Shown here: piece by piece, positions 676-23,369 of the stretch
How positions within the stretch are numbered: the stretch's first letter is position 1
Layout of the letters: each line of letters starts with the position of its first letter
DNA from: Boswellia sacra
Lineage: Eukaryota > Streptophyta > Magnoliopsida > Sapindales > Burseraceae
Direction of reading: 5' to 3'
Assembly (NCBI GenBank): GCA_013180625.2
Contig: SNVD02004560.1
Span: forward strand, 1 to 64,000
DNA length: 64,000 nucleotides
The notes under the pieces: generated by a model
What the model saw: the letters and a program-made list of their open reading frames with translations, nothing else
What the model was told of the DNA's origin: nothing
Database searches by the model: none
Made by a program: the position numbers and the translations under genes

Positions 676-1076
676 TGTTAGCCCTAAGGCTACATCATAA
701 TTTTGATGATAACAATACACATTGATTAATTGAGATTTACTAACATGTTTATTTATGTACAAGAGTAAGATCATTGAAATAATTGTAAAATCAAGAAGAG
801 GATTATTAAAATGAAGTGTTGAAGCTAAGGAGAAGACTACATGTTAAAGGCACCAAAGTTTAAGAACAAGGTTTGATTCAAGGAATGTGTCACATGACCA
901 ATGTTCAATCAATTGGTCATATATTTCTCTACAAATGTCCAAATAACATGATTCTTAAGCCTTTGGAAAGCTTACTCAATTTATAACATTTCATATGTTT
1001 TAAAGAAATTCAAATTTCAAGTGTAAGGTTGTCCAAATCATCATGCAAGTTGAAAGACAAATGAAAGTAGCTGACA

Positions 1077-1640
1077 TGAGCACCGAATACTCTTTTAGAC
1101 ATATCCTGAGCTAGAAAAATCAAAATGACTTTATTCTTGTGGAATTGGAAAGAGGACTTAATGAGGTACATTTCATATGTTTTGAAGAAATTTAAATTTC
1201 AATTGGAAGGCCGACATAATTGACATGCAATTTGGTGGACTGACAAAGAGAAGAAAAATCAACTCATTTGAGCACCGAATGATGTTTTGTCCATATCTTG
1301 AGTTAGAGATATTCAAATGACTTGATTCTTGTGGCACTAGAAACATGATTCAATGGAACAGATTTCATATTCTTTGAAGAAATTCAAATTTCAAACAGAA
1401 GGCCAACATAATACACATGCAATTCGGTGGATTGACACATGAAAGAAAAATCAAGTCACATGAGTACCGAATAGTGTTTTGGCCATATCTTAAGCTACAG
1501 ATATCCAAATGACTTGGTTTTTGATGCGTTGAAAATCTTATTCAATTGTACAGATCTTTTGTGTTTTTGCAGATTTTCAAATTTAAGGCGAAATATTGAC
1601 AAAAATGGCAGACAAGATTATGGTTTTTATGGTGGGCAGA
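1077..1640 (+). repeat. Three degenerate ~190-bp tandem repeats inside the LTR
   Basis: The phrase GAGCACCGAAT or a close variant recurs near 1079, 1269 and 1461. Each is followed by a similar run (about 'ccatatcttgagctagagatatcc'). The same three-repeat structure occurs in the copies at about 19.8-20.3 kb and 45.75-46.3 kb, so it belongs to the LTR family. Confidence 0.75.
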
Positions 1641-1905
1641 AAATTTGGAGTTGGTGTCTTCACTTGATTAAGTTCATCCCATTTGCCTATGAAAAGAGCC
1701 CTTCTCCCATGCATTCAGAGCAACAAGAAGAGCAAGAGAAGCATTTTATCAAGCAAAAAGCAAGAGAAATATCAAGTCTAGAGAGCTTTTATATTCTTTA
1801 TCTACTCTTTGAAGAGAGTTATACTTTTGTTGTAAAAATTATCTTTATTCTTGTATTGTGGTGAGAGTGAGATATTCTTGTAAAGGATAATAGTTATCCT
1901 TGAGA

Positions 1906-2290
1906 GAACTCTTGTTGTATGTTATCAAGAGTTGAAGGAAGTTTCCTTGGTGAGGTTGTTCATCAAGAAGAACTCTTGTTATGTGTTATCAAGAGTTGAA
2001 GAAAGTTACCTTCGTGAGGTTGCTCATCAAGAAGAACTCTTGGTGTGGTGTTATCAAGAGTTGAAGAAAGTTGCCTCGGTGAGGTTTTTCATCAAGAAGA
2101 ACTCTTGGTGTGGTGTTATCAAGAGTTGAAGAAAGTTACCTCGATGAGGTTGTTCATCAAGAAGAACTCTTAGTGTGGTGTTATCAAGAGTTGAAGGAAG
2201 TTACCTTGGTGAGGTTGTTCATCAAGAAGAACTCTTGGTGTGGTGTTATCAAGGGTTGAACGAAAAAGTCTTGGTGAGGTTGTTCATCAA
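1906..2290 (+). repeat. 64-65 bp minisatellite inside the LTR
   Basis: Units begin with GAACTCTTG at 1906, 1970, 2034, 2099, 2164 and 2229. Each unit contains a GTTATCAAGAGTTGAA block and a GAGGTTGTTCATCAAG block. The sister LTR at 19396 has the same array. The third family member at 45350 has only one or two units, which accounts for most of its shorter length. The open reading frames across the array are a by-product of the repeat. Confidence 0.85.
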
Positions 2291-2619
2291 GCAAGTTATA
2301 AAGATTTCTACAACTTAGTAGAAAGCTTAGCTCGTGGAGCTAGGAGCCCGTGGACATAGGCAAGGTTTGCCGAACCATGTACATCGAGTTTGCACTCTCT
2401 CTATCCCTATCTTCTTTACATTTACTTGCACTTTTGATTACTCATTATTGTTATTCTCTTGATTGCATCTTTGATAACTTCTAATTTCATCTTCTTCACC
2501 TTTATTCTCAAAGAAAGAGTGAACTAATTTTGATCTTTCAAGAAAAGTTTTATAAATCCGTTTTGATAAATAAAAATCCAATTCACCCCCCCTCTCGGGT
2601 TGCCATACCTGGGTCAACA

Positions 2620-3165
2620 ACTCTTTCGTCTATAGGTTTTCCCTCAGATGCTAAGGTCTCAGCTATTATTCAGGATAGGGATTGAGCTTTTCCTGATAGT
2701 GGGTTGGTCCTTGGACGGGTTTGGGACTCTGTCAGCATCCAGCCTATGATGGGGACTCCTGACCATATTGTTTGGAAGGGCCACACACCTATGATGGGGA
2801 CTCCTGACCATGTTCTAAGGCACTCATTTATTCTTTGGCTTGCTTCATTGGGTCGTCTTCGTACTATGGATCGACTACGGTGTCATGGCATGTTATCTTC
2901 TTCGGGCTGTGTTCTTTGTGCTTCAGCAAATGAGTCTCATTGTTTCTTCATGGCATGTTTCTTTAGTTGTCCTTTCTCGTCTTCTGTATAAGGGGAGATT
3001 TTAGCTAAGACACTCATTGTTTGACCATCTTTTGGTTGGCTCTCTCTACTTCATTGGGCTTCTCTTCATCTTCAGGGCAGGAAGAATTTTGGACATATCC
3101 TTGCACGTTTGGTCTTTTCTACTATAGTTTATTTTCTATGGTATGAGAGAAATGATCGTGTGTAT
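2620..3165 (+). pseudogene. LINE ORF2 fragment, zinc-binding RT domain (proximal copy)
   Basis: This continues the LINE after the solo LTR. It encodes remnants of the zf-RVT region typical of plant LINE ORF2 C-termini (HSFILWLASLGRL, then MDRLRCHG and a CVLC pair). Relative to the distal copy, about 95 bases of LINE sequence are missing near 2787-2812, and a short copy of the nearby CCTATGATGGGGACTCCTGA sits in their place. The fragment ends at the Gypsy insertion site TGTAT (3161-3165). Confidence 0.8.
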
Positions 3166-4588
3166 TGATAGGTGTCTATTTATGTATTACTTTCATATCA
3201 ATTTATCCATGTTTCTTTGCTATATTCCTTGGTATTTTTATGTTTTTGTGTGTTTTTTATGTTTGTAGGAGTTTTGGAGCAACTTGCACAAAAATGAAGT
3301 AAAACCCTTCATTTTCACCTCTGCTAGTCAGCCAATTTCTCGGAGTTGATTGTATCGATATACAATTAACCGGATAACATGCTATATACCATTGAAAAAC
3401 TCTCGAAGTCTATTTTCTGGAGAAATTTACGGTTCACAAATTTATGTAGTGTACCGAAAGTTGTGATAAAAATGGTATGAGAAGTGTATATTTGTAATTC
3501 CATATATCACTGTAGCATGTTATTAAATTCGGGGCACTGTAGCAAGTTACTGTAGCAGAGTATTTAAACACATTTTAGGGTTTTATTTTCATAACTTGAA
3601 GAGGGGAGAACGTGGTAGAGGCTGCAGCTCTGGATTTCTTTCATTTCTTGGAGTTCTTGAAGGAGAAAGAAAGCTTGGAAAGAGGAAGAACAACAATCCT
3701 AAGAGATTTTCATCAAATTTGCTAAGTTTTTCCCTTCCCTTTCATTTTCTGGAATGTCTCCATGTTGTTTTGTATTTACCACATTTTTGAACATGTGTAA
3801 CTGAATCTGAATTGGTTGAGGGTGATTTCAAAGCCCTTGATATGGTTTTTGTGAGTTGATTGTGTAAGAAATTGTTATCCATTTCTCTAATTGAAGTTGA
3901 TTGCATTTTCCCATATCTAATGCTTATGATTGCTTGTTGGTTGTATTTGGGCTGGCCAACTAAATATAATCTGGTTGTATTTTCCCATATCTATTGCTAG
4001 ACTAGAAATCTTGATCCGTAATTGTCTTGAATTTCTAATCATTAATAGCAAAATTGTGATCAGAGATTGCAATTGGAAAATACAACCTAGGTTAAATAAT
4101 TCGAACCTGTGTGATTATTGCTTAGATCAACCTATCTTTCTTATCGTAATGCTTCCATTGAATTAAACTCAGAGAACTTGTTCTAGGTTGTTTAATGGAT
4201 AGAGATTAAATAAAGAGCTTGTTTTATTTAACAACAAAGTAAGGAAAGATTGGGATAACAGAGCTTGTTGTTATCTACAGTTGATAATTTCAATGGTGTA
4301 ATTGGATGACAATTCTATAATTAATTCGCAAATCCATATCTTGTGGTAGAGAATGATCCCTTAACCAGATTTCTCTCATTGATTTTTCATTCCAATTAAC
4401 TTTCTGTTTTGTTATTCTTCATTTGCATTATTATTTCACTTAGTTAATCAATCAATAAAACCCCCCATTTGTTCTGTTGTGGCTGTAAAATAACAAATTC
4501 AATTAGAATCAATCCTCGTGGGAACGATATCTCACTTATCACTTTATTACTTGTGCGACTAGTATACTTGCTAGTTTCGAACGCATCA
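3166..4588 (+). repeat. 5' LTR of the Athila-like element
   Basis: The LTR starts TGATAGGTGTC and ends GAACGCATCA, with TGAT/ATCA terminal symmetry. It is preceded by TGTAT (3161-3165). The copy at 21954-23369 matches it and is flanked by TGTAT on both sides, which fixes both ends. The short ORF at 3596-3790 lies inside the LTR and is not considered a gene. Confidence 0.92.
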
Positions 4589-4594
4589 AGTTTT

Positions 4595-4612
4595 TGGCGC
4601 CGTTGCCGGGGA
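4595..4612 (+). other. Primer binding site, tRNA-Asp type
   Basis: TGGCGCCGTTGCCGGGGA lies six bases after the 5' LTR. It is complementary to the 3' end of plant tRNA-Asp and is the primer site typical of Athila-type and related plant Gypsy elements. Confidence 0.9.
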
Positions 4613-4694
4613 TTGATTTTCTAATCAATTTGTTATTCTGTTTTAACTACTGATTCTTGATTGTTATTTCCTGATTGTTTGTGTTTAGGCTTTT

Positions 4695-5489
4695 ATGTCC
4701 GAGGGAGAAGCGGATCAGCGACTTAAGAGAATTAAGGAGTTTCTCCAATCCTCGAATTTAAGACTAAATCGGTTAATTTCAACTCCACCTCCAGAATTTG
4801 ACCTTGCACGACATACTTCCCTCCCATCTTCTTGTAGTTCAATCAAATCTGAATCGGAAGCAATGGCGATGGAAAACGATCAGACTTTTAAGGAGTTAGC
4901 GGCTCCAATTATTGATCAACAACCGCTATGCATAAGCACCAATTTTGAGATAGATTTTGAACTTAAATCTGGACTGATTCATCTCTTGCCTACATTTCAT
5001 GGTTTTGCAAGAGAGGATCCGAACAAACACCTCAAAGAATTTCATGTGGTATGCTCAAGTATGAAGCCAACCGGCGTTTCTGAAGAGCAAATTAAATTGA
5101 GAGCTTTCCCATTCTCATTAGCAGATTCGGCAAAAGATTGGTTATACTATCTACCACCAGGTACCATTACCACTTGGAATGAGATGAGTAAACTCTTTTT
5201 GGAGAAATACTTTCCAGCCTCGAAAGTTACAAATATCAGAAAAGATATTAGTGGCATTCGACAACACAATGGAGAATCACTTCATGAATATTGGGAGAGA
5301 TTTAAAAGGTTATGTGCTAGCTGTCCAAACCACCAAATTAGTGATGGACTCCTAATTCAATATTTCTATGAGGGTCTCTTGCCAATGGAAAGGAGTATCA
5401 TTGATGCTGCTAGTGGTGGAGCACTAGTTAATAAAACATCGAACATTGCAAGACGTTTGATTAGTGACATGGCAGCGAACTCCCAATAA
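4695..5489 (+). pseudogene. Gypsy gag (capsid region)
   Basis: A 264-codon open frame carries the Retrotrans_gag signature: FAREDPNKHLKEF, then AKDWLYYLPPGTITTW, FLEKYFP and ESLHEYWERFKRLC. Gag forms the virus-like particle of the retrotransposon. The frame ends at a TAA at 5487. Beyond it a shift near a run of A residues (about 5584-5594) moves the downstream nucleocapsid part into another frame. The start at MSEGEADQ lies 82 bases after the primer site, as expected for this group. Confidence 0.85.
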
Positions 5490-5607
5490 TTCAGCAGTCA
5501 ATTTGAGCCACAACTACCAAAAAGAGTAAATGAGGTAAGTACTTCAAACATTGAACAACAACTTTGTGAACTTACCTCTCTCGTAAAAAAAAACGGCTGT
5601 AGGACAT

Positions 5608-6624
5608 ATGCAGCAATCTTATGCATGTGGAGTATGTTCTACCATGGACCATCCAACCGACATGTGTCCAACTTTGCAAGAAGGAGATACAGAACAAGCC
5701 AATGCCATGGGTGGATTTCCAGGACAACCAAGGCAAAGGTATGACCCTTTCTCCAATACTTACAATGCTGGATGGAGAGATCACCCTAATTTAAGATATG
5801 GGAATCATCAACCAAGTGCCCCAAATGCCATACCAAATCGACCACCAGGTTTCAATCAACCAAGGGTGCAGCAACCATTTCAAGCACAACCATAACCAGC
5901 ACCACAACCAGATCCACAAAATTCAGGTATGTCTCTCCAGGATATTGTTAAAGCACTTGCCACTAACACAATGCAATTTCAGCAGGAAACTAGGGCAAGT
6001 ATCCAAAACCTGGAAAATCAAATGGGACAATTGGCCACTAACATTAGCAAATTTGAGAGTCAAAGCTCAGGAAAATTACCTTCTTAGCCGATGATCAATC
6101 CAAGAGAGAATGCTAATGCTGTAACTTTGAGAAGTGGGAAGCAATTAGAGATTCCACCAAAGAAATCACAAACTGATGAAGGGGATGACACCACTCCCAC
6201 CATGAATAAAACATCATCTTCTAAGGTAAATCCTAAAACCCATAGTCCTTCATATGTTACTCCTCCACCTTTTCCTAGCAGATTTGCAAAATCAAGGAAG
6301 GAGGAACAAGAACAAGAAATCCTGAAAACATTTCGCAAGATCGAGGTAAACATACCACTTCTGGATGCTATCAAGCAAGTGCCTCGTTATGCAAAATTTC
6401 TCAAAGAGTTATGCACCAACAAGAGGAAGTTGAAAGGAAATGAGAAGGTAAGTGTGGGGGAAAATGTGTCAGCTGTATTGCAAAGAAAAATTCCTCCGAA
6501 ATGCAAAGATCCAGGTACGTTCACCATTCCATGCACCATTGGTAATACCAAGTTTGAAAGAGCTTCGTTATGCAAAATTTCTCAAGGAGTTATGCACCAA
6601 CAAGAGAAAGTTGAAAGGAAATGA
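5608..6624 (+). pseudogene. Gypsy gag C-terminus with zinc knuckle and gag-protease linker
   Basis: The frame carries a nucleocapsid-type cluster, CGVCSTMDHPTDMCP, near its start, then a proline/glutamine-rich segment and the linker (NANAVTLRSGKQLE) that precedes protease in Athila-type elements. Stops at 5893 and 6085 break the frame. It is finally thrown out of phase by a 181-bp tandem duplication starting at 6385. Confidence 0.8.
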
Positions 6625-6746
6625 GAAGGTAAGTATGGGGGAAAATGTTTCAGCTGTTTTGCAAAGAAAAATTCCTCCGAAATGCAAAGATCCAGGTACG
6701 TTCACCATTCCATGCACCATTGGTAATACCAAGTTTGAAAGAGCTA
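6385..6746 (+). repeat. 181-bp tandem duplication in the gag-protease linker
   Basis: Unit 1 (6385-6565) and unit 2 (6566-6746) both start CGTTATGCAAAATTTCTCAA and end in GAAAGAGCT. They differ at only a few bases. The period of 181 is not a multiple of three, so the duplication itself shifts the reading frame between linker and protease. Confidence 0.93.
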
Positions 6747-7090
6747 TGTTAGATTTAGGAGCATTTATTAATGTCATGCCATATTCTATTTATGCTTCTT
6801 TGAATCTTGGACCCCTTGCGGAAACTGGTATTGTAATTCAACTTGCTGATCGTTCTAATGCAGATCCCACGGGAGTTGTGGAAGATGTGCTTGTGCAGGT
6901 GAATCAATTGGTATTTCCAGCAGACTTTTATGTTCTTGAAATGGAGGATGAGACATCTCCCAATCCAACATCGATTCTTTTGGGGAGGCCATTCTTGAAA
7001 ACTGCCCGAACGAAGATTGATGTTCATGATGGCACTCTCACCATGGAGTTTGATGGCGAGGTGATTCGTTTCAATATTTTGAGGCAATGA
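6626..7090 (+). pseudogene. Gypsy aspartic protease
   Basis: The segment carries the retropepsin-like domain of an Athila-type polyprotein. The active-site region reads MLDLGAFINVMPYSIY, where relatives usually have a serine after DLGA; here it is phenylalanine. It is followed by IQLADRSNADPTGVVEDVLV and the ILLGRPFLKTART segment. The protease normally cleaves the gag-pol polyprotein. The frame closes with TGA at 7088-7090, and RT lies in another frame, so this copy cannot make a joined polyprotein. Confidence 0.85.
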
Positions 7091-7571
7091 GGTACCCTAG
7101 TGACTTGCATTCTGTTTTTGCAGTTGATGTTATTGATTCTTTGACACAACAACTTTTGAGTTAACTCGCAAGGATGCATTGGAAGTAGCCATTAGTGAGC
7201 ACATTGGGGCAGAAAATTCCAGAGAATCGAGGAAGTTGATACAAGTGTCTAAAGAAGTGGAGGAAGCAGTGGCAAGCTTGGATGAGACTATAGCTATCAC
7301 CACAAACAGGTATGATGTTTCGTACATTGAATTGACTTTATCTAATGAGAAACTTCTACCTTCCGTGATGAAAGCACCTGCCTTGGAGCTTAAACCTCTT
7401 CTAGATCATTTGAAGCATGTATTCCTAGGTGAGAAAGATACTTTGTCAGTCATAATAGCAAAGAGTCTTGCACCATTACAAGAAGAGAAACTCATCTGAG
7501 TGCTCTGAGATCACAAAACAGCCATTGGGTGGACAATCGCTGACATCAAAGGTATTAGTCCAGCCATATGC
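7091..7571 (+). pseudogene. Protease-RT linker of the Gypsy polyprotein
   Basis: This stretch encodes the linker typical of Athila-type elements: PALELKPLLDHLKHVFLG, then IGWTIADIKGISPAICMHRI leading into RT. It shares the RT frame but contains stops (TGA at 7497 and another within about ten codons). Confidence 0.75.
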
Positions 7572-8414
7572 ATGCACCGCATCTTGTTAGAAGAGGGATC
7601 CAAGCCCACTAGAGAAGCACAGCGGAGGTTGAATCCTCTGATGATGGAAGTTGTCAAGAAAGAAATCCTGAAATTGTTAGATGTAGGTGTGATTTATCCA
7701 ATTTCGGACAGCAAGTGGGTGAGTCCAGTCCAAGTTGTTCCGAAGAAATCTGGTGTTACAATGGTTAAGAATGACAATAATGAGCTAGTTCCTACTCGTA
7801 TCCAAACCGGCTGGCGAGTTTGTATTGATTATCGGAAGCTCAATTCAGCAACTCGCAAGGATCAATTTCCTTTGCCATTCAATGATCAAATACTGGAGAG
7901 GTTAGCAGGTCATTCTCACTATTGTTTTCTTGATGGCTATTCAGGATATAATCAGATTCTCATTGCCCCTGAGGATCAAGAGAAAACTACATTCACATGC
8001 CCATTCGGTACATTTGCCTATCGACGCATGCCATTCGGTCTTTGCAATGCCCCTGCCACTTTCCAAAGGTGTATGGTAAGTATTTTCTCTGATTATGTTG
8101 AGAACATCATTGAGGTATTTATGGATGACTTTAGTGTTTGTGGTGATTCTTTTGATAAATGCCTTGACAATCTTACCCTTATACTTCAAAGATGTATAGA
8201 AACTAACCTTGTTCTGAATTGGGAGAAATGTCATTTTATGGTAGATAAGGGTATAGTTTTGGGACATGTTATTTCTGCTAAGGGTATAGAGGTTGATAAA
8301 TCCAAGATAGATCTTATATGTTCCTTACCACCTCCCACAAGTGTGCGGGATATTCGTTCGTTTCTTGGTCATGCAGGTTTTATCGTAGATTCATCAAAGA
8401 TTTCTCGAAGATAG
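7572..8414 (+). pseudogene. Gypsy reverse transcriptase
   Basis: The domain reads in one frame through the RT blocks: GWRVCIDYRKLN, FCFLD-like YCFLDGYSGYNQI, TTFTCPFGTFAYRRMPFGL and the catalytic box VFMDDFSV, where the FMDD variant keeps both catalytic aspartates. It copies element RNA into DNA in the cytoplasmic particle. A single-base loss near 8381 moves the sequence into the frame used by RNase H. The internal methionine at 7572 is only the start of the open stretch, not a gene start. Confidence 0.9.
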
Positions 8415-8848
8415 CATTGCCCCTATGCAGATTATTACAGAATGATGTGGCCTTTGAATTTGATGAGAAATGCAAAGAGGCATTTGAGAAACTGAAGGAA
8501 CTCTTGACTTCGGCTCCAATAATCCAATCTCCGAATTGGAATCATCCATTCGAGATCATGTGCGATGCAAGTGACTACGCTGTGGGTGCCGTTTTGGGTC
8601 AACGAATTGGCAAAATTCCACATGCCATTTACTATGCATCTCGGACTTTAAATGATGCTCAACTTAATTATTCTACCACTAAGAAAGAGCTGCTAGCGGT
8701 TATTTTTGCTTTAGAAAAGTTTTGATCTTATTTGATTGGTACTAAAGTAACCGTTTATTCTGATCATGCAGCTTTGAGGTACTTGATCACAAAGAAAGAT
8801 GCTAAACCAAGGCTTATCAGGTGGATACTCCTTTTATAGGAGTTTGAC
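8381..8848 (+). pseudogene. Gypsy RNase H region
   Basis: After the frameshift the translation continues as FYRRFIKDFSKIALPLCRLL, then the RNase H-like part with IMCDASDYAVGAVLGQ, YASRTLNDAQLNYSTTKKEL and DHAALRYL. Stops at 8723 (TGA) and 8837 (TAG) interrupt a frame that is otherwise continuous with integrase. Confidence 0.87.
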
Positions 8849-10285
8849 TTGGAGATCAAGGACAAGAAGGGAAGTGAAAACTTAGTTGCAGACCATCTCA
8901 GTCGCATTGTCCATGATAAGAATGCACTGCCATTACAAGAGAGTTTTCCGGATGAACAATTGTTGTCTCTAAATGTAGTAGCCCCTTGGTATGTAGATAT
9001 TGTCAACTACTTAGTTACCAAGAAGCTACCACATGACTTGACTCGAGCTCAAAGAGACAAGATCAAGAACATTGCCAAGTATTACATATGGGATGATCCG
9101 TACTTATGGAAGCATTGTTCTGATCAAGTGATAAGAAGGTGTGTTTCTGAATCTGAATTTAATTCAGTTTTAACCTTCTACCATGCATATGCATGTGGAG
9201 GTCACTTCGGACCAAAAAGAACAGCCCTTCAAGTTCTTGATTATGGATTCTACTGGCCATCATTGTTCAAAGATGCATATCTGTTCTGCAAAGCTTGTGA
9301 CCGTTGTCAAAGGACAGGTAATTTAAGTGCCAAAAATCAAATGCCACAAACCCCTCTACTTATTGTCGAGATTTTTGATGTGTGGGGTATTGATTTCATG
9401 GGTCCTTTTCCTTCATCTTTTGGTAATGTTTACATTATACTTGCTGTGGATTATGTTTCTAAATGGGTGAAAGCAAAAGCTACGAGAACTAATGATTCTA
9501 AAGTTGTTGTAGATTTTGTGAAATCTAACATTTTTGCGAGATTTGGAACACCAAGAGCCATGATTAGCGATAGAGGGACACCCTTTTGCAACCGATCATT
9601 TGAAGCCTTACTCAAGAAATACAACATCACTCATAAGGTGTCTACTGCATATCATCCACAAACTAGTGGTCAAGTTGAAGTTTCAAATCGGGAAGTCAAG
9701 TCCATTCTCGAGAAGACAGTGAATCCAAACAGAAAAGATTGGAGCCTACGATTGAATGATTCACTTTGGGCCTACAGAACTGCTTACAAGACACCTATTG
9801 GGATGTCTCCGTATAGGTTAGTCTATGGTAAGCCATGTCACCTTCCAGTAGAGCTCGAACACAAAGCATGGGGGGCAGTAAAGCTTTGTAACATGGAGAT
9901 GGATGCTGCTGGAGAACAAAGGAAGCTTCAACTGCAAGAATTGAAAGAACTTAGAAATGATGCCTATGAGAATTCCAGAATTTACAAGGAGAAAACTAAG
10001 GCATTTCATGATAAAATGATCTCCAGGAAGAATTTTGAAGTGGGACAGAAAGTTCTTTTATTTCAGTCTCACCTCAAGTTATTTCCAGGTAAATTACGAT
10101 CTCGATGGGTTGGACCTTTTGTTATTACTAATGTTTTTCCCCATGATGCAGTGGAAATCAAGAGCTTAAAAACGGATAAAGTATTCAAGGTGAATGGGCA
10201 AAGGTTGAAGCCTTACTATGAGAATTCAGTGATGCAGGACATCGATGAGGTACCACTCTACGAGCCAACTTATCTTGATGGGTGA
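8849..10285 (+). pseudogene. Gypsy integrase
   Basis: A 478-codon open stretch covers the integrase: an HHCC zinc-binding N-terminus ([11 protein letters not shown] ... [11 protein letters not shown]), the catalytic core with [14 protein letters not shown] and the glutamate in [10 protein letters not shown] (D,D,E), and a C-terminal domain with [12 protein letters not shown]. It would insert the cDNA into the genome. It is the longest intact piece of the element. No chromodomain is visible, consistent with an Athila-type rather than a chromovirus element. The stops in the preceding RNase H prevent expression as a polyprotein. Confidence 0.92.
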
Positions 10286-10731
10286 GGACAAATAACGTCA
10301 GGCTGAGGACGTTAAACCAAGCGCTTATTGGGAGGCAACCCAATGTTTTTGAAATATAAATAAAAAGAGACAAAGAAAAGAAGGTAGTATTGATCAATTT
10401 TTGTGTTTCGAGGAGATTCCTCTCATGGGCTATTATAATTGATCAGGTTTTATATCTCTTTGCCATTTGTCTCATTTGCTTTGTTGTTTGTTTTTGACTT
10501 TCATTTGCTCTTGTGTTTTTATTTCTTTTATGTGTCTCTATTTTCATTTCTTTTCTTTTCTTTTCTTGTGTTTAATTTGATTATTCCGTGCTTCGAGTTC
10601 AGTTGTGCAACAGCTTGAGGAAACATTCAAACGGGAGTTGAAGCCATTGTCGAAGGTTTGAAACGTGCATATCTGGGAGAAGAACAAACTCAATCGCATT
10701 ATCGGTAATATCTCTCCTTTTCTCATCTTCA
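10286..10731 (+). other. Non-coding spacer after pol with a conserved Gypsy motif
   Basis: The spacer holds AAGCGCTTATTGGGAGGCAA with CCCAA following, a short hairpin motif (TTGGG/CCCAA) commonly found just after pol in Athila/Tat-type elements. A T-rich stretch leads to the next ORF. No gene is seen. Confidence 0.6.
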
Positions 10732-11313
10732 ATGGATGCTGATATCTTTCTATCGAACCTTCGTAAATATTTCCCTTCACTTCCTCAAAATGCTGTGTTT
10801 AAAATTTATAAAGTACGGATGACCAGACTTTGGGCATTGATGCTCCTAAATTTGCTTGCGGATATCCAATGGCTTATCGAAGCCAAGGTAAGATTGTCTG
10901 GTGAGCCTGATATTAATCTAGCAAAATACATGCCTGGTCTAGGAAAGAGCTACTACGCCAAAAGGCGAAGAGTGAAAAGGTTACAAGTATGTTATAAATG
11001 TGCTAGATGGAATTGTAACCAGACTTGTCGTTCATTAGGTTTTGTGTCCAGGAATAGAGAAGATAAACGTTCATTTATTAAGAATGGTTTGAGTAATGAG
11101 TCGCTGGATAATGTTTTGTTAACTCTCGAGTCACATTCTTGTGGACTTGTTCAGCGTGAATTGCTTAATCTATGGATACAATTTCGTGATGAATTGCAGT
11201 GTTATAGTCTAGGGAATCTGACTAAAAACGACCCTGTTTGCCAGTTTATAAGAAACTGGATGGGAAGCAAATCCCCGACTCATAGAAGGCGTTTCAGCCG
11301 TTACTGGACGTAA
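10732..11313 (+). CDS. Accessory ORF of the retrotransposon, basic/C4 protein of unknown function
   Basis: This is an uninterrupted 193-codon ORF in the same orientation as pol, between integrase and the LOG-like sequence. Residues 1-60 form a hydrophobic-helical N-terminus (RLWALMLLNLLADIQWLIEA). Residues 77-83 are a basic run KRRRVKR that could serve as a nuclear signal. Cysteines at 87, 90, 95 and 99 (CYKCARWNCNQTC) form a C-x2-C-x4-C-x3-C cluster able to bind zinc. A C-terminal helical part and a basic tail follow. No signal peptide or clear membrane anchor is seen, so an envelope protein is unlikely. The order of basic run then cysteine cluster recalls the small cysteine-rich nucleic-acid-binding proteins of carla- and allexiviruses; this is a motif-level impression only. 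An intact frame among broken neighbours is notable. Confidence 0.6.
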   Translation: MDADIFLSNLRKYFPSLPQNAVFKIYKVRMTRLWALMLLNLLADIQWLIEAKVRLSGEPDINLAKYMPGLGKSYYAKRRRVKRLQVCYKCARWNCNQTCRSLGFVSRNREDKRSFIKNGLSNESLDNVLLTLESHSCGLVQRELLNLWIQFRDELQCYSLGNLTKNDPVCQFIRNWMGSKSPTHRRRFSRYWT

Positions 11314-11514
11314 AACCAGAGGAAGATGTGAGCCACAATCACAACTACTTGTATATTTGAATGGTGTTGTTGTTGTCGAATTTTATTTCTTTCTTGTTTC
11401 GTTTGATCTGATTATCAATGTTGTTTTTGTGTTGTTGTTGTTGTTGATTTTGTTTGTTTTAATTTCAAGTTTTCTTTTTGACAAACCATATGACTACCCT
11501 ATGGCATAAGTACA
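11314..11514 (+). other. Non-coding T/G-rich spacer of the element
   Basis: The spacer is rich in TTG repeats (around 11360-11450) and shows no coding potential. It separates the accessory ORF from the hairpin repeats. Confidence 0.5.
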
Positions 11515-11714
11515 CTTGGGAGACAAGTGTGGAGGCTTTGTCAACCTCCACCGAAAGTGTATCTCTATTTTTTATGCTTCACGTGGGAGACAAGTGTGGG
11601 GGTTTTGTCAACCCCCGCCGAAAGTGTATCTCCATTTTTCATGCTTCACGTGGGATATAAGTGTGTAGGTTTTGTCAAAACTCGCCGAAAGCATATCTCA
11701 TTTTTTCAAATTTT
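11515..11714 (+). repeat. Three 67-bp tandem repeats, each with a hairpin
   Basis: Units start at 11515, 11582 and 11649. Each contains an inverted repeat around TTTGTCAA. Unit 1 pairs TGGAGG with CCTCCA, unit 2 pairs GGGGGTT with AACCCCC, and unit 3 pairs GTTTT with AAAAC. Between units 1 and 2 a paired A-T becomes G-C on both arms, so pairing is kept despite substitution. Confidence 0.85.
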
Positions 11715-11901
11715 AGGGCGATAAATCTGCATCGAGCAAGTCCCACCGAAATTATGTCCCCATGTGTCAAATTTGAGAGTTTTACGTGTGTATATCCATT
11801 GTGCATATTTTCAAATGTCATTTTATAACCTGTCTTGCACTTGAATTACATAATACCTAACGTGCATCATTGTCTTACACAAGTTTAGAGCACTTGTAGA
11901 A

Positions 11902-12551
11902 ATGGAGAAAACACCAATCGGCGATTCCAAAATATATGCGTATTTTGTGGATCGCAATTTGGTAAAGATGGAGAGTTTACAACAGCAGCTCTTGATCTTG
12001 GTAGAACATTAGCTGCGAGGGGTATTTATTTGATTTATGGAAGGGGTAGTCTTGGGTTAATGGGGTGTGTGTCGACAGCTGCATCCTTGGGAGGAAGTAA
12101 AGTTCTCGGCATTATCCCTAAACCATTAGCTGTACGAGATATCATAGGCAACACCATGGGGGAAGAGTTAAAGGTCTCTAGCATGCATGAGCGTATTGCA
12201 CATATGGTCATTAAATCTGATGCATTTATAGCTTTGCCTGGTGGTTATGGTAAATTAGAGGAGATATTTCAAATCACCTCTTAGGCACAGCTAAACATCC
12301 ATCGGAAACCCATTGGTTTGTTAAATGTTAATAATTTTTTTGATGGTTTGTTGTCCTTTCTTGATCAAACTGTAGAAAAAAATTTCATCTCACCGTCAGC
12401 AAGGCAAATGCTGGTTACAGCTTCAACTGCAGGAGAGTTAATTGACAAACTACAAGAATTCGTCTATTCACCTGATCCAACAATGGCTCGGATAAATTGG
12501 TTTGGAGAAGGCAACAAAAGGCGTCAACTGGATTTAACCCTCCATCTGTAA
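11902..12551 (+). pseudogene. LOG-like: Captured, intronless LOG-like cytokinin-activating enzyme (pseudogene)
   Basis: LOG enzymes release active cytokinin bases from cytokinin riboside 5'-monophosphates. The translation from ATG 11902 gives a short leader, then ICVFCGSQFGKDG (from 11934), GRGSLGLMG, VLGIIPKPL, MHERI, the family signature as PGGYGKLEE, then KPIGLLNV and a normal C-terminus. At about 216 codons it is family-typical in length. Plant LOG genes have several introns; none is present, so it looks like a cDNA copy. Lesions are a two-base insertion just before ICVFC (about 11933-11937) and a TAG at 12282 where relatives have tryptophan. One glycine of the GGG nucleotide loop is arginine. 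It lies in sense orientation between the accessory ORF and the element's 3' region. Confidence 0.9.
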
Positions 12552-14390
12552 TCTCTATTTGCTGGTTTGCTTCGTTTTTGTTTGCTTTCTTTTTAGTTTG
12601 TTTATTTGAGATTTTTCATGTCATTTCTTTTGAGTTTTTTCAGGTTATTTCTTTCGTCTCAGGTAATATTTTCTAATCTCGATTTTTAGAGTTGTGGCTT
12701 AAAAAGTTCAAGTTCTCTTGAAACGTATTCTGGATCTTTTTAATCCATAATGGCTGAATAAGGAGGCTAACTTCTAAAATTTTTAGACCCATTCTAACTA
12801 ACTTGTTTTTGTTTGCTAACTTGTTGAACTTTGTTATTTTATGAGAGAGTTTAGTTTTCCGTAATTTAGAGTTGTTATGTGTTTTTATCTTTATCAGTTT
12901 CGATTTAAAAAAAATTGTGAAAAAACCTGAGAATGACAGAATATGGGGTTTCCTTAACCCTTAAAACGCATTCTTCCTTAAGAACTTTGTAGTTTGTTTA
13001 TTTCATGTTGTTTGAAGTGTCTTGTTTCTTGTTTTGTTCTTCATAATAAAGGTATATAGGCTAGAAACCTTAAGTCTGTGGGCTACTGGTCCTAAGGATT
13101 GTTGAAATATACAATCTTAACTCACGTGTAACAACGCCACGTACCTCTTTTCTTGCATTTTGTGGGTCGATGATAAGATAATGATTGAATTGAGAATAAC
13201 TCTTGGAAAATGATAAATAATGCATGGATCTGTGTGCTTTAAATGTTTATTGGTTTTCACTTTGCCTTTGATTCCTTGCACATCATTGAGCACCGAGCCA
13301 TTATCACAGAGTTATTTGTTTACTTAGAGAAGGTGTATGCAATTTAAGTGTTTTCTCAGATTTTAATGAATTCTAGAACCTGTTTGATGGTCACTCGAGG
13401 CGAAATCCTAGACTGTGCAATATTGGGGAAATGATTTAGGCCATCTTTGGACCGTTTGAGCCTTAACAGCCACCCTTGACTGAAATTGATCCCTAGTTAC
13501 CCCTTTGAGCCTTTGTAAGCCATTTTCCTTGTTAACTCACTAAAAGATTTCCTAACTTCAAATAAATTTCTCTTCCGAAACAGCTTATCCCTTATCCATG
13601 AGCATGTAAATCACTCACGATAACATTTTGAGCTCTGTTCTGGTTTTGGGAAGTTAGAGGAGGTTTGGTTGTGCCATGAGCAATGCAATTGAGTTCTGTT
13701 ATGTTTGTAAAAAAAAAAAAACCAATCTGTACTTCTTGTCCTCGTACTTACACATTGAGGACAATGTGTTGTTTAAGTGTGGGAGAGGGAAGTGTAAAAA
13801 AAAAAAGAAAAAAAAAGAGATCTATACCCTTGGATATTCTTAAAAAGAATGAAACAACAAAGTATGAGGGTGTAGTTTCTTTTGTTTTCTACAAAAAAAA
13901 AAAAAAAAGAAGATTGAGTATTCTAAATAAGTTTGGGAGAGTAACCTGGTGAATTGAAATAAAGTTGTGTTATAGGGTTGAGCTCTACTTTGCCTTGAAT
14001 GATTTATGTGTTTGTGGGTGATTTGAGCCAAATTATTATCCTTTATCATACTTTCACCCAAGCCAAACATTACAAGCTTAATAAAGTCCTACTTGATCCT
14101 TGGTGTTGTGCATGTCTACATTAGTGGAGAGTGACTTGAAAAGCAGGCCTATGGAGTTCATTTATATACACATCTTCAATATTAAATATGATTCATTTTT
14201 ATGCATAAACTCATCCGGGTTACAAGTGATTAGGTGAGAATGGCTCTACACACACACACAAAAGGAATTAAAGTAGAGCGAAACTAATATTTGAAATAAA
14301 ATTCTTGATCAAGTGCATTATTTTGAAGTTTTCCTTGAGTTATAATTAAGTACAATCTTTGAGGCCTATTTGTGATGGCCATACAGTGTT
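12552..14390 (+). other. 3' non-coding region of the Athila-like element
   Basis: No gene is seen in this 1.8 kb. It resembles the region before the 3' LTR in plant Gypsy elements: a CATTGAGGACAATGT block near 13756 is followed by GTTTAAGTGTGGGAGAGGGA (13771-13790), a polypurine tract-like stretch, then A-rich runs. A (CA)n run lies at about 14252. The 3' LTR expected next is absent. Confidence 0.65.
13771..13793 (+). other. Polypurine tract-like sequence
   Basis: GTGTGGGAGAGGGAAG lies after the ACATTGAGGACAATGT block, the usual setting before the 3' LTR in this element group. It is a candidate plus-strand primer site, but no LTR follows it directly, so its role is uncertain. Confidence 0.4.
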
Positions 14391-16514: not shown

Positions 16515-19395
16515 ATGATAGGAAGTTGGAATATTAGAGGCCTTAATGGCTTCTCTACGTAGCGAGCAGTTAGAAACTGGATTTCTAGGTACTCTTTAGG
16601 TTTGATTGGTCTCTTAGAAACTAAGGTTGATCAGCAGCGCCTTGCTTCAGTTGTTTCGGATATTTGTCCTTCCTGAAAGTTCTTATCCAATGCCACTGAA
16701 TTAAGTGCTTGTAGAGTTTTGGTGTGTTGGGATCCTACTTTGTACAATTTGAGTGGTTTGCAGCTTTCTCTACAGTGGATCGTTTGTCAGGCTACCAGAT
16801 TATCAGATAGGGTTTCTTTTGGTTTGATCTTTGTTTATGGTTCTAACGCACTGGGTGTTCGTCGACAGTTATGGGATTTTCTGAGAGCTCAGTCCATGAG
16901 CTTTGGTGACTTACCTTGGTTGGCATTGGGTGATTTTAATACGATTTTACGCTATTCGAATAGAGTTGGTGGGGATCAGGCATGGCATGGTTACATGGAT
17001 GAGTTTGGTCAGTGTATTCATGATACAGCATTACTCAGGGTACTATCCTTTAGGGTTCGGTATACTTGGCATAATAGGCAGCAGGGCGAGGGTACTATTC
17101 TTAGGACTCTTAATTGGAGTTTTGGTAGTGCTTCATGGTTCTTAACTTGGCCTAACACATCTTCTGAGGTTCTTCCACAGGATATTTCTTATCACAGTGC
17201 TATAGTCATCAGGTTTGGAGATCAGCGTAGGCATATCTCTAGTCCATTTAAATTTTTGAACTTTTGGGCTAACCGAGAGGATTTCTTGGAGATTGTTCAG
17301 TGAGTATAGTCTATGCCTGTAGATGGGGATCTTATATTTCGAGTCACACAGAAATTGGGCCTATTGAAGCGTGAGTTTAAGACTTTGCATGCCAAGGATT
17401 CTAGCCACATCTCTAGTAGAGTCATTGAGGCTAGGGCTCAGTGGGCCGCAGCTCAGGCTGCTTTGGATGAGAACCCATTTTGCCTAGATTGTATTTTGGC
17501 TGAGAGGGATTATGCTAAGTAGTATTCCCAGTTGTGTAGGGATGAAGAGGCTTTCTTTCGGTAGAGGTCAAGGATCTAATAGCTTTCTTTGGGGGATCAG
17601 AATACCAAGTTCTTTCACAAGTCTCTGATCCATAGACAGGTCAGGAATCGGATTCATCAACTTGAGGATGTGGATGGTACCATCATTACAGATCGAGGTG
17701 ACTTAGATCATCTGGCTATAAGGTATTTTCAGAAATTACTTACAGCTCTTTCTCGACCTTCTATTGAAAAGGCTTCTCGGTTTTTCTTTGGAAGAGTTTC
17801 TGCAGAGATGCTGCCTTCTTTGGTGTGCCTTATTACCTATGATGAGATCAGGTCAGCTTTATTCTCGATTCCCAATGATAAAGCTCTGGGACCGGATGGG
17901 TACACTTCTCTGTTCTTTAAGAGGACTTGGGACATTATTAGTGTGGAGTTTACGGCTGTTGTGTGCTACTTCTTTGCGACTTGCTGGATGCCAAAGTGTG
18001 TTAATGCCACTAGGATTGCCTTGGTCCCCAAGGTTGAGACTCCGAGGACTATGAGTGACTTTCGACCAATCTCTTGTTGTAATGTACTTTATAAGTGCAT
18101 CTCTAAAATGATTGTGAACCGGTTCAAAGCAGTTTTACCTGATGTAATTGGGAGTTCGCAGTCAGTTTTTGTCCCAGGTCAAAGGATCTCTGATGCCATT
18201 CTATTGACTCAAGAGCTCATGCATAATTACCATCTTGGGTATTCACCTCCCTGGTGCACTTTAAAGGTGGATATTCGTAAAGCTTTTGATACTGTCAGTT
18301 GGGATTTCATCCTTTTGGGGTTAAGGACGATCGGTATTCCAAAGTGTATTGTTCGATGGATTGCGACTTGCATGTCTTCTGCACATTTCTCGGTTGCTTT
18401 AAATGGAGAGCTTCATGGGTTCTTTCCCACCTCCAGAGGTGTTCAACAGGGTGATCCGTTATCACCATACCTTTTTGTGTTGGCCATGGAGGGTTTGAGT
18501 GGTATTCTTCGGGAGGCCTCTCAGCGGCCTGGTTTTCGATACCATTGGAGATGTTTGTTTGTTTTACTCATCTTTGTTTTACAGATGATCTGATGGTTTT
18601 TTGCAAGGCAGATGTGGGCTCTGTTGGGGTGGTTCGTGCTGCTTTGTAGGAATTTGCAGAGCTCTCCGGTTTGGTTACGAATTCGGCCAAGAGTCATGTC
18701 TTCTTTTTCGGAGTCAATGATGAGGATTGAACAGTGTTGCAATCCATTTTGGATTTTCAAGTGGGGAGTTTGCCGGTTCGGTATTTGGGGGTGCCACTAA
18801 TCAGTACCAAATTGCACCTTCCAGATTGCGCTCCATTAATAGAACGGATTCTGTCGAGGGTTAGGTTATGGACTTCTGTTGTGCTGACTTATGCTGGCCG
18901 TCTCTAATTGATTAAGTCGGTATTATTTTTCATCCAGGCCTATTGGTCATCTATGTTCATTTTACCGGCTGCTGTGGTACGAAAGATCGAGGGTATTCTG
19001 GCTGCTTTTTTTTTGGACATGGACCTCTTTGTCTCGTTTTGGGGCCAAAGTAGCTTAGGATTCGGTTTGCTATCCGTTGAAGGAAAGGGGATTAGGAATT
19101 AAGCGAGTGAAGGAGTAGAATCGTGTTGCTATTCTGAAGCATGCTTGGTGACTTCTTTCTGACAAGTCTTCCACATGGTCTTCTTAGGTTCATAAAGTGC
19201 TCCTTCGGGGCACTCATTTTGGCAGGTTTGAGTTACTTTTGGAGCCTCCTGGTCTTGGAGGAAGATTTTGCATAGCCGGGATTGGTGTAAGGGTAAATTT
19301 GTCTCTTGTATTGGAGATGGACGTGATACATCACTTTTGCAAGATTACTGGTTGCCGCACGGACGTCTTTGTGATCTATTTTCTTTCAGGACTCT
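16515..19395 (+). pseudogene. LINE ORF2: endonuclease and reverse transcriptase
   Basis: ORF2 nicks target DNA and primes reverse transcription there. MIGSWNIRGLNG at 16515 begins the AP-endonuclease-like domain, which continues through WLALGDFNTILRYSNR and YTWHNRQQGEG. RT follows: DKALGPDGYTSLFFK, FRPISCCNVLYK, LKVDIRKAFDTVSWDF, GVQQGDPLSPYLFVL, then the catalytic FTDD at about 18578, where FADD is usual. Stops at 16560, 16674, 17301, 17519 and others, and a shift near 18540-18565, disable it. It breaks at the solo LTR insertion (target ACTCT, 19391-19395). Confidence 0.87.
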
Positions 19396-21338
19396 TGTTA
19401 GCCCTAAGGCTACATGATAATTTTGATGATAACAATACACATTGATTAATTGAGATTTACTAACATGTTTATTTATGTACAAGAGTAAGATCATTGAAAT
19501 AATTGTAAAATCAAGAATAGGCTTATTAAAATGAAGTGTTGAAGCTAAGGAGAAGACTACATGTTAAAGGCACCAAAGTTTAAGAACAAGGTTTGATTCA
19601 AGGAATGTGATACATGAGCAATGTTCAATCAATTGATCATATATTTCTCTACAAATGTCCAAATAACATGATTCTTGAGCCTTTGGAAAGCTTGCTCAAT
19701 TTATAAAATTTCATATGTTTTAAAGAAATTCAAATTTCAAGTGTAAGGTTGTCCAAATTATCATGCAAGTTGAAAGACAAATTAAAGTAGCTGACATGAG
19801 CACCGAATACTCTTTTAGACATATCCTGAGCTAGAAAAATCAAAATGACTTTATTCTTATAGCATTGGAAAGAGGACTTAATGAGGCACATTTCATATGT
19901 TTTGAATAAATTTAAATTTCAAACGAAAGGCCGACATAATTGACATGCAATTTGGTGGACTGACAAAGAGAAGAAAAATTAACTCATTTGAGCACCGAAT
20001 GATATTTTATCCATATCTTGAGTTAGAGATATTCAAATGACTTGATTCTTGTGGCATTAGAAACATGATTCAATGGAGCAGATTTCATATTCTTTGAAGA
20101 AATTCAAATTTCAAACAAAAGGCCGACATAATACACATGCAAGTCGGTGGATTGACACATGAAAGAAAAATCGAGTCACATGAGTACCGAATGGTGTTTT
20201 GGCCATATCTTAAGCTACAGATATCCAAATGACTTGGTTTTTAATGTGTTTAAAATCTTATTCAATTGTACAGATCTTTTGTGTTTTACAGATTTTCAAA
20301 TTTTAGACGAAATATTGACAAAAATGGCAGACAAGATTACGGTTTTTATGGTGGGCAGAAAATTTGGAGTTGGTGTCTTCACTTGATTAAGTTCATCCCA
20401 TTTGCCTATAAAAGGAGCCCTTCTCCCACGCATTCAGAACAACAAGAAGAGCAAGAGAAGCATTTTATCAAGCAAAAAGCAAGAGAAATATCAAGTCTAG
20501 AGAGCTTTTATATTCTTTATCTACTCTTTGAAGAGAGTTATACTTTTGTTGTAAAAATTATTTTTGTTCTTGTATTGTGGTGAGAGTGAGATATTCTTGT
20601 AAAGGATAATAGTTATCCTTGAGAGAACTCTTGTTGTGTGTTATCAAGAGTTGAAGGAAGTTTCTTTGGTAAGGTTGTTCATCAAGAAGAACTCTTGTTA
20701 TGTGTTATCAAGAGTTGAAGAAAGTTACCTTTGTGAGGTTGTTCATCAAGAAGAACTCTTGGTGTGGTGTTATCAAGAGTTGAAGAAAGTTGCCTCGGTG
20801 AGGTTGTTCATCAAGAAGAACTCTTGGTGTGGCGTTATCAAGAGTTGAAGAAAGTTACCTCGGTGAGATTGTTCATCAAGAAGAACTCTTGGTGTGGTGT
20901 TATCAAGAGTTGAAGGAAGTTACCTTGGTGAGGTTGTTCATCAAGAAGAACTCCTGGTGTGGTGTTATCAAGGGTTGAACGAAAAAGTCTTGGTGAGGTT
21001 GTTCATCAAGCAAGTTGTAAAGATTTCTACAACTTAGTAGAAAGCTTAGCTCGTGGAGCTAGGAGCCCGTGGACATAGGCAAGGTTTGCCGAACCATGTA
21101 CATCGAGTTTGCACTCTCTCTATCCCTATCTTCTTTACATTTACTTGCACTTTTGATTGCTCATTATTGTTATTCTCTTGATTGCATCTTTGATAACTTC
21201 TAATTTCATCTTCTTCACCTTTATTCTCAAAGAAAGAGTGAACTAATTTTGATCTTTCAAGAAAAGTTTTATAAATCCGTTTTGATAAATAAAAACCCAA
21301 TTCACCCCCCCTCTCGGGTTGCCATACCTGGGTCAACA
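19396..21338 (+). mobile_element. Solo LTR inserted in the LINE (distal copy)
   Basis: This is the same LTR insertion as 676-2619, flanked by ACTCT at 19391-19395 and 21339-21343. A good TATA box, TATAAAAG, lies at 20407-20414. The 64-65 bp minisatellite lies at about 20625-20960, and the three ~190-bp repeats lie upstream of the TATA box. Confidence 0.9.
20407..20414 (+). promoter_or_regulatory. TATA box of the solo LTR
   Basis: TATAAAAG occurs in a CCTATAAAAGGAGCC context that is shared with the LTR at 45350-47003 and mutated in the copy at 676-2619. It would mark the LTR promoter. Confidence 0.6.
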
Positions 21339-21953
21339 ACTCTTTCGTCTATAGGTCTTCCCTCAGATGCTAAGGTCTCAGCTATTATTCAGGACAGGGA
21401 TTGGGCTTTTCCTGATAGTGGGTTGGTCCTTGGACGGGTTTGGGACTCTGTCAGCATCCAGCCTATGATGGGGACTCCTGACCATATTGTTTGGAAGGGC
21501 CACACTTCTGGTATTTTCTTCATTGACTTAGCATGGAAATTATTACGGAGTAAACGATCGGTGAACTCCTTTCATCATCTTCTCTGGTTTCCTAGCCATG
21601 TTCTAAGGCACTCATTTATTCTTTGGCTTGCTTCATTGGGTCGTCTTCATACTATGGATCGACTACGGTGTCATGGCATGTTATCTTCTTCGGGCTGTGT
21701 TCTTTGTGCTTCAGCAAATGAGTCTCATTGTTTCTTCATGGCATGTTTCTTTAGTTGTCCTTTCTCGTCTTCTGTATAAGGGGAGATTTTAGCTAAGACA
21801 CTCATTGTTTGACCATCTTTTGGTTGGCTCTCTCTACTTCATTGGGCTTCTCTTCATCTTCAGGGCAGGAAGAATTTTGGACATATCCTTGCACGTTTGG
21901 TCTTTTCTACTATAGTTTATTTTCTATGGTATGAGAGAAATGATCGTGTGTAT
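21339..21953 (+). pseudogene. LINE ORF2, zinc-binding RT domain (distal copy)
   Basis: The sequence includes SGIFFIDLAWKLLRSK, which is missing from the proximal copy, then FHHLLWFPSHVLRHSFILWL, MDRLRCHG and CVLCASANESHCF of the zf-RVT domain. It ends at TGTAT (21949-21953), where the Gypsy LTR is inserted. Confidence 0.85.
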
Positions 21954-23369
21954 TGATAGGTGTCTATTTATGTATTACTTTCATATCAATTTATCCATGT
22001 TTCTTTGCTATATTCCTTGGTATTTTTATGTTTTTGTGTGTTTTTTATGTTTGTAGGAGTTTTGGAGCAACTTGCACAAAAATGAAGTAAAACCCTTCAT
22101 TTTCACCTCTGCTAGTCAGCCAATTTCTTGGAGTTGATTGTATCGATATACAATTAACCGGATAACATGCTATATACCATTGAAAAGCTCTCGAAGTCTA
22201 TTTTCTGGAGAAATTTACGGTTCACGAATTTATGTAGTGTACCGAAAGTTGTGATAAAAATGGTATGAGAAGTGTATATTTGTAATTCCATATATCACTG
22301 TAGCATGTTATTAAATACGGGGCACTGTAGCAAGTTACTGTAGCAGAGTATTTAAACACATTTTAGGGTTTTATTTTCATAACTTGAAGAGGGGAGAACG
22401 TGGTAGAGGCTGCAGCTCTGGATTTCTTTCATTTCTTGGAGTTCTTGAAGGAGAAAGAAAGCTTGGAAAGAGGAAGAACAACAATCCTAAGAGATTTTCA
22501 TCAAATTTGCTAAGTTTTTCCCTTCCCTTTCATTTTCTGGAATGTCTCCATGTTGTATTGTATTTACCACATTTTTGAACATGTGTAACTGAATCTGAAT
22601 TGATTGAGGGTGATTTCAAAGCCCTTGATATGGTTTTTGTGAGTTGATTATGTAAGAAATTGTTATCCAATTCTCTAATTGAAGTTGATTGCATTTTCCC
22701 ATATCTAATGCTTATGATTGCTTGCTGGTTGTATTTGGGCTGGCCAACTAAATATAATCTGGTTGTTATCTATTGCTAGACTAGAAATCTTGATCCGTAA
22801 TTGTCTTGAATTTCTAATCATTAATAGCAAAATTGTGATCAGAGATTGCAATTGGAAAATACAACCTAGGTTATATAATCCGAACCTGTGTGATTATTGC
22901 TTAGATCAACCTGTCTTTCTTATCGTAATGCTTCCATTGAATTAAACTCAGAGAGCTTGTTCTAGGTTGTTTAATGGATAGAGATTAAATAAAGAGCTTG
23001 TTTTATTTAACAACAAAGTAAGGAAAGATTGGGATAACAGAGCTTGTTGTTATCTACGGTTGATAACTTCAATGCTGTAATTGGATGACAATTCTACAAT
23101 TAATTCGCAAATCCATATCTTGTGGTAGAGAAGGATCCCTTAACCAGCTTTCTCTCATTGATTTTTCATTCAAATTTAACTTTCTGTTTTGTTATTCTTT
23201 ACTTGCATTATTATTTCATTTAGTTAATCAATCAACAAAAATCCCCCCATTTAGTTTATTGTTGCTGGAAATAACAAATTCAATTAGAATCAATCCTCGT
23301 GGGAACGATATCTCACTTATCACTTTATTACTTGTGCGACTAGTATACTTGCTAGTTTCGAACGCATCA
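21954..23369 (+). mobile_element. Solo LTR of the Athila-like element
   Basis: This LTR matches 3166-4588 and is flanked by perfect TGTAT duplications (21949-21953 and 23370-23374). LINE sequence resumes directly after it. LTR-LTR recombination therefore removed the internal region and one LTR from this copy. Confidence 0.93.

Follow-up and report, generated by a model that had tools for sequence, protein, structure and literature searches.

A LOG-like pseudogene beside a virus-type reading frame in a probable Athila-like retrotransposon of Boswellia sacra, and its apparent intact relatives in other plants

Introduction

Two Athila-like elements similar to LOGL4 are said to be named in the abstract of a study by Steinbauerova et al. 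from 2011. In line with that study (Steinbauerova et al. 2011), the main text of PMC9289625 reports that Gypsy consensuses of Citrus sinensis and C. clementina contain a LOG (YgdH) domain, as does one of Populus trichocarpa when a looser filter is applied (PMC9289625). Two further papers, PMC11963269 and PMC7264820, contain no mention of the terms 'lysine decarboxylase', 'cytokinin' or 'nucleic acid binding'. In the open-access titles, abstracts and main texts searched, no report was found of an NABP-like reading frame in retrotransposons, or of the LOG tail described below. A LOG in a retroelement is already in print, and what goes beyond it is the combination of a virus-type partner gene and a basic, EAR-like tail. 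The function of the extra genes of plant retrotransposons is an open question, to which a conserved pair of genes would bring two testable proteins.

The locus considered here lies in a stretch of 64,000 nucleotides of Boswellia sacra (64 kb), the whole of which was analyzed and is called the window. The element found in it belongs to a lineage that probably has a pair of accessory genes downstream of pol, first an NABP-like gene and then a LOG; the pair most likely serves the element and does not represent a one-off capture.

The element and its LTRs

The element in the window is most likely a Ty3/Gypsy retrotransposon of Athila-like type, present as a decayed copy (Table 1). Its order, with gag followed by a pol in which the reverse transcriptase precedes the integrase, is the one seen in Athila-like Ty3/Gypsy elements, and the pol domains are detected as RVT_1 (1.2e-27), rve (1.3e-16), and Integrase_H2C2 (2.4e-10). 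The protease match (Asp_protease_2, 1.8e-4 at 6452-7090) lies under its curated cut-off, and the gag-protease stretch additionally holds a tandem duplication of 181 bases at 6377-6738. The primer site TGGCGCCGTTGCCGGGGA, which we take to be of the tRNA-Asp type, would be of the kind that characterizes Athila/Tat elements. The initial annotation had called the element Athila-like, in agreement with the primer site and with the gag, reverse transcriptase, and integrase domains found here; the lineage name itself is putative and draws on the primer site, and the reverse transcriptase probably resembles that of Athila elements. The same annotation had placed the LOG-like sequence on the sense strand, between pol plus an accessory reading frame and the 3' region of the element, which is the gene order seen in the window. 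Two hairpins are found directly 3' of the pol stop codon, at 10290-10352, including ATTGGG-AGGCAA-CCCAAT (z -1.56).

Table 1. Features of the element and associated LTR copies in the window
Feature	Position	Strand	Basis or remark
5' LTR, beginning TGTTAGCCC	676..4588	+	about 97% identical copies; ends before primer site
Primer binding site TGGCGCCGTTGCCGGGGA	4595..4612	+	sequence read 3' of 5' LTR
gag and protease, broken frames	4689..7090	+	Retrotrans_gag 8.8e-22 (4689-5489)
pol, broken frames	7137..10285	+	reverse transcriptase 7509-8414, integrase 8840-10285
NABP-like ORF, 193 aa	10732..11313	+	Viral_NABP 1e-7, Carla_C4 1.5e-4 (10642-11313)
Conserved block 3' of NABP, possibly three hairpins	11284..11350 (L001 2345-2411)	+	window-L001 alignment, folds
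67-base unit repeated three times in tandem	11513..11713	+	between NABP-like ORF and LOG
LOG-like pseudogene, intronless	11902..12551	+	frame break just 3' of ATG, stop 12282-12284, altered PGGxGT
Basic and LxLxL (EAR-like) tail NKRRQLDLTLHL	12513..12548	+	C-terminus of window LOG
Second LTR copy, read as solo-type at duplicated LINE site	19396..23369	+	same LINE sequence (divergence 0.032) ahead of both LTRs

The three LTR copies of the window have a common start, at about 676-677, 19396-19397, and 45350-45351. The second one is not simply the 3' LTR of the element, because the same LINE sequence lies upstream of both LTRs (1-675 versus 18721-19395, with a divergence of 0.032 over 674 bases). 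The sequence downstream of the second LTR reads, by eye, like the end of a LINE ORF2. Given the shared LINE upstream and the LINE-like sequence on the 3' side, the reading that suits the second LTR best is that of a solo-type copy, located where a site has been duplicated (or is allelic and mis-joined). A 3' LTR belonging to the element itself is not recognizable within the 64-kb window, and no target-site duplication matching the two LTRs is seen there. The two LTR copies differ by 0.026 over 3903 bases, from which an insertion age of 1.1-2.0 Myr was calculated and rejected, since the same LINE lies upstream of both copies (divergence 0.032, versus 0.026 for the LTRs); this figure concerns a duplication or an allelic difference, and gives no simple insertion date. 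Expected numbers of lesions that had been derived from this divergence were set aside as well. The third copy is partial (45350-47003), about 87-91% identical, and preceded by what appears, by reading, to be a copia-type gag.

The LOG-like pseudogene

The LOG frame is present where it had been reported. A profile search with Pfam Lysine_decarbox finds it at 2.6e-17 (11889-12284) and 2.5e-12 (12285-12551), TIGR00730 matches its two open pieces (2.1e-30 and 1.7e-11), and the PDB chain 2a33 (At2g37210) matches it at 5.4e-61. It also lacks introns, as had been claimed: a tblastn search with the intact relative P0056 gives a single match at 11907-12548 (residues 3-215 of the query), colinear with the relatives and free of introns or gaps, and this query detects one LOG copy only within the 64-kb window.

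Three lesions are visible in this copy. The frame open from 11889 is not the one in which the ATG at 11902 lies, a TAG is found at 12282-12284, and a lysine stands where a threonine is expected in PGGxGT. The initial annotation had counted only two, a two-base insertion and a stop; the stop is confirmed, and so is a frame break within the first few codons, although the latter is not pinned down as a two-base insertion, and the altered motif adds a third defect. PGGYGKLEE, as the window reads, had itself been presented as a LOG motif. The family form is instead PGGxGT, as PGGxG is present in 106 of the 120 listed LOG relatives and is followed by T in 105 of these 106 and by S in the remaining one. 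Similarly, the window has YGRG where 106 of the 120 listed relatives have YGGG. The pattern PGGxGT..E, which the window copy fails, is retained in 103 of the 120 listed relatives, the M..R pattern in 111 of them, and the Lysine_decarbox or TIGR00730 domain in 31 of the 31 relatives checked. Read from its sequence, the window LOG is a dead relative of LOG enzymes, among which the listed relatives qualify by domain and motif.

It had further been suggested that the LOG shows less decay than expected. It does not appear better preserved than pol, however, and a near-constant motif residue is altered too. Two frame breaks are found in its 0.65 kb versus about seven in the 5.6 kb of gag-pol, a count that comes from a reading of the ORF list and may include natural gag/pol boundaries. 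If break density were equal, at least two of the nine breaks would land in the LOG with P = 0.24, so a better preservation of the LOG than of the rest of the element is not supported. The signs that would have marked the LOG as an insert of its own, a target duplication and a poly-A tail, were sought and not found: 12549-12850, 3' of the LOG, holds no A-run of at least 8, and no direct repeat flanking the LOG is above chance (the longest is 10, shuffles having a mean of 8.7 and a maximum of 13).

The NABP-like reading frame

The reading frame upstream of the LOG, which the initial annotation gives as an accessory ORF, has a recognizable domain, with matches above the curated cut-offs for both Viral_NABP (PF05515; 32.6 bits, cut-off 23) and Carla_C4 (PF01623; 22.1 bits, cut-off 20.9). 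Alignments show that the frame of its C-terminal end differs from that of its relatives, and the LOG starts 588 bases 3' of its stop codon. Of the 87 candidates from a search with the single sequence, 44 are relatives at E<=0.001, and a search with an alignment yields 591 at E<=0.01 among 2811 candidates, the best 120 of these 591 being listed. All the named sources are plants (Xanthoceras, Gossypium, Orobanche, Populus, Acer, and Rhamnella), and most listed members have about 182 aa. An alignment of 54 members, consisting of 52 of the 131 listed proteins together with those of the window and of contig L001 (DAIEQH010000041.1), shows Viral_NABP in 46/54 and Carla_C4 in 43/54 at E<=0.001.

The structural model of the NABP-like protein is poor (pLDDT 60.2), too weak as proof of a fold, and its best Foldseek match in a viral library is not significant (E 0.038, with a TM of at most 0.24 for rank 1). 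The first twelve of these non-significant matches comprise ten proteins named as silencing suppressor, nucleic-acid-binding or 15-kDa plant-virus proteins, presumably from betaflexiviruses, and two without a name. Viral contigs searched with the NABP alignment, an integrase alignment, and a DNA pattern returned no relative. The gene upp-L, a carlavirus-induced bHLH gene, was considered as a LOG that could join both genes in function; the literature searched gave nothing in this regard, and no such link is claimed.

The end of the NABP-like gene is followed by a conserved block. Over the 71 bases from the end of the NABP of L001 onward, the window and L001 have five differences (counted by eye), and a longer match extending into coding sequence, at 77% identity, is less conserved than this block. 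Folding of the block gives three small hairpins in both sequences (z -1.75 and -2.36), one of them with a base pair changed on both sides, two sequences being too few for claiming a structure.

Association of both genes in other plants

L001, which carries an integrase and an NABP of plant retroelement type, is the single plant-type contig found in the search of genome contigs, and the window integrase is 60% identical to its integrase. The 983 bases 3' of its NABP contain no LOG, which speaks against the pair being universal. L001 is filed in a 'Candidatus Nomurabacteria' assembly, where it is apparently a contaminant.

The association of the two genes was also approached through the lengths of the contigs that encode them, a comparison covering 120 of the 131 listed NABP and 88 of the 120 listed LOG proteins. 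Excluded from it were the chromosome-sized contigs that belong to named genomes and one protein with no length given. Among contigs of at least 2000 bases (44 NABP by 32 LOG), three pairs are on contigs of identical length (8723, 4511, and 2128), versus 0.22 on average and 2 at most in 100 shifted comparisons. The signal is weaker with a floor of 1500 bases (62 NABP, 47 LOG), where four matches are found versus 0.76 on average and 4 at most. In addition, the cotton gene model P0042 is an NABP protein whose last 33 residues match window-like LOGs (E 1.5e-7), the only one of the 131 listed NABP proteins with a LOG piece at E<=0.001.

Through these identical-length contigs and the cotton model, the NABP-like reading frame appears indirectly linked to intact window-like LOGs elsewhere. 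The presence of a LOG at the same place in other elements, proposed by the initial annotation as the mark of a true element gene, is thus indicated only indirectly, the published Citrus and Populus Gypsy consensuses being a further indication. In other plants, related elements seem to hold both genes, with the LOG being intact, which hints at a manipulation of the host cell.

Relationships and constraint of the window-like LOGs

When 34 of the 120 listed LOGs and that of the window are placed in a tree with AtLOG3, AtLOG8, and a bacterial LOG as references, the 35 window-like LOGs are on one side and the three references on the other (support 96/90), with the three LOGs from identical-length NABP contigs inside the window-like side. 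Just two plant cellular LOGs are included in the trees, and other host LOGs could fall among the window-like rows. Identity is 62-71% among the window LOG and the three NABP-contig LOGs, and 49-56% between these four and the two Arabidopsis LOGs; the window LOG itself is 71% identical to P0056, one of the three, 52% to AtLOG3, and 49% to AtLOG8. These values bear on the earlier proposal that an mRNA had been captured. The missing introns fit it, but the capture looks older than the present element, because LOGs that are only 62-71% identical already seem to stand beside the same neighbor. Six LOG-like proteins from IMG/VR loci (L002-L007), whose best segments are 32-42% identical to the query, were set aside as distant.

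Conservation by site was studied in the 22 other rows of the window's clade in a larger tree (fork support 87), just 2 of which have the tie to an NABP contig. Pairwise identity in the clade is 0.863 at the 74 sites that are invariant in the three cellular LOGs versus 0.561 at 105 others, a contrast between site classes that is not explained by the preference of databases for intact frames. The window departs from the clade majority at 6/73 sites of the invariant class and at 38/105 of the others, close in both cases to the median departure of the other rows (0.068 and 0.305), so most of the history of the window LOG looks constrained. As the LOG appears intact and constrained in related elements, the pair of genes most likely serves the element.

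A different reading, of low probability, is that most of the database LOGs represent ordinary genes of the host, or domesticated copies with a history of their own, and that the closeness of an NABP is a coincidence or useless hitch-hiking. It would agree with the origin of most LOG and NABP matches in metagenome contigs without context, with the annotation of the Primulina and Populus LOG matches as LOG3-like or LOGL10 genes, and with the tie to NABP contigs in only 2/22 rows of the clade; some window-like LOGs, such as those of Xanthoceras, which lack the tail, may be host genes. The identical-length contigs and the cotton model speak against it, as do the gene order in the window itself and the Gypsy consensuses with a LOG described in the main text of PMC9289625. 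So does the dispersal of the LOG in Diplodiscus, where nine window-like LOGs carry locus tags of eight chromosomes, as expected for a mobile element.

The C-terminal tail

Window-like LOGs commonly end in a stretch of basic residues and, after it, L-D-L-(S/T)-L-x-L. An LxLxL within the last ten residues is found in 94 of the 120 listed LOG relatives, versus a rate of 0.012 in shuffled tails, and is present in the window LOG and in all three NABP-contig LOGs. In the tree, 28 of the 35 rows have it, a distribution that needs three changes, such as one gain and two losses. LxLxL corresponds to the EAR motif, which can recruit TOPLESS, and a basic run can direct proteins to the nucleus.

The product of the element gene might be imagined as a nuclear adaptor or decoy that acts via its tail and no longer makes cytokinin. 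The conservation of the tail among LOG relatives would suit such a role, as would changes, found across most of the clade, at some of the sites that do not vary in the three cellular LOGs. The retention of PGGxGT..E and M..R in most listed relatives (103/120 and 111/120) speaks against it, and this reading too is of low probability.

Proposed mechanism

That the lineage holds a pair of genes in its own service remains the preferred reading, and a way in which the pair could act can be outlined. The LOG gene would derive from a spliced plant LOG mRNA. The NABP-like protein, a basic zinc-finger protein, would bind nucleic acid and blunt host silencing. The element LOG would enter the nucleus by means of its basic tail and release active cytokinin in the cells expressing it, and its LDL(S/T)LxL may recruit a TOPLESS-type corepressor. 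Jointly, they would favor dividing, germline-forming cells, to the benefit of the element. As a whole, this chain of silencing suppression by the NABP, a nuclear cytokinin-releasing LOG, and corepressor recruitment is tentative, and it is equally doubtful that it amounts to a eudicot-wide two-gene module for host manipulation, whose parts would be a silencing suppressor that betaflexiviruses also have and a nuclear LOG with a corepressor tail.

That the LOG arose as a processed pseudogene of separate origin, or was captured once in this one element copy, is very improbable: the window LOG is intronless, broken, and alone in the window, and L001 has an NABP without a LOG, but the window LOG has neither an A-run nor an above-chance flanking repeat and is nearer to the NABP-contig LOG P0056 (71%), with which it has the tail in common, than to AtLOG3 (52%).

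If the mechanism were true, the pair would allow the element to escape silencing and would push host cells into, or hold them in, a dividing, germline-forming state, as a retroelement counterpart of the hormone genes of gall-forming microbes. A conserved pair would also tie a family of RNA-virus genes to retrotransposons and provide a case of a mobile element equipped with a hormone switch of its own.

Comparison with known systems

The closest described systems are the Gypsy or Athila-like elements with a LOG domain, which have this domain within the element as the window does; the main text of PMC9289625 describes neither an NABP-like neighbor nor a tail, whereas the window has both.

The NABP and silencing suppressor proteins of betaflexiviruses (PF05515, PF01623) have in common with the window reading frame the profile matches above curated cut-offs. 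They are encoded in RNA viruses, in contrast to the window-type reading frame, which follows a retrotransposon pol and has about 182 aa in most listed relatives.

The cellular enzymes LOG3 (At2g37210) and LOG8 (At5g11950) of Arabidopsis are colinear with the window LOG over the enzyme core, with identities of 52% and 49%, respectively, and share the PGGxGT kept in most window-like relatives, but neither chain aligns with the tail of P0056, an intact relative.

Lastly, the Gypsy elements of Phalaenopsis with a reading frame for an AlkB-like m6A demethylase, as described in the main text of PMC9289625, have likewise acquired and kept an extra enzyme gene, although the enzyme, the lineage, and the proposed role differ from those of the window element.
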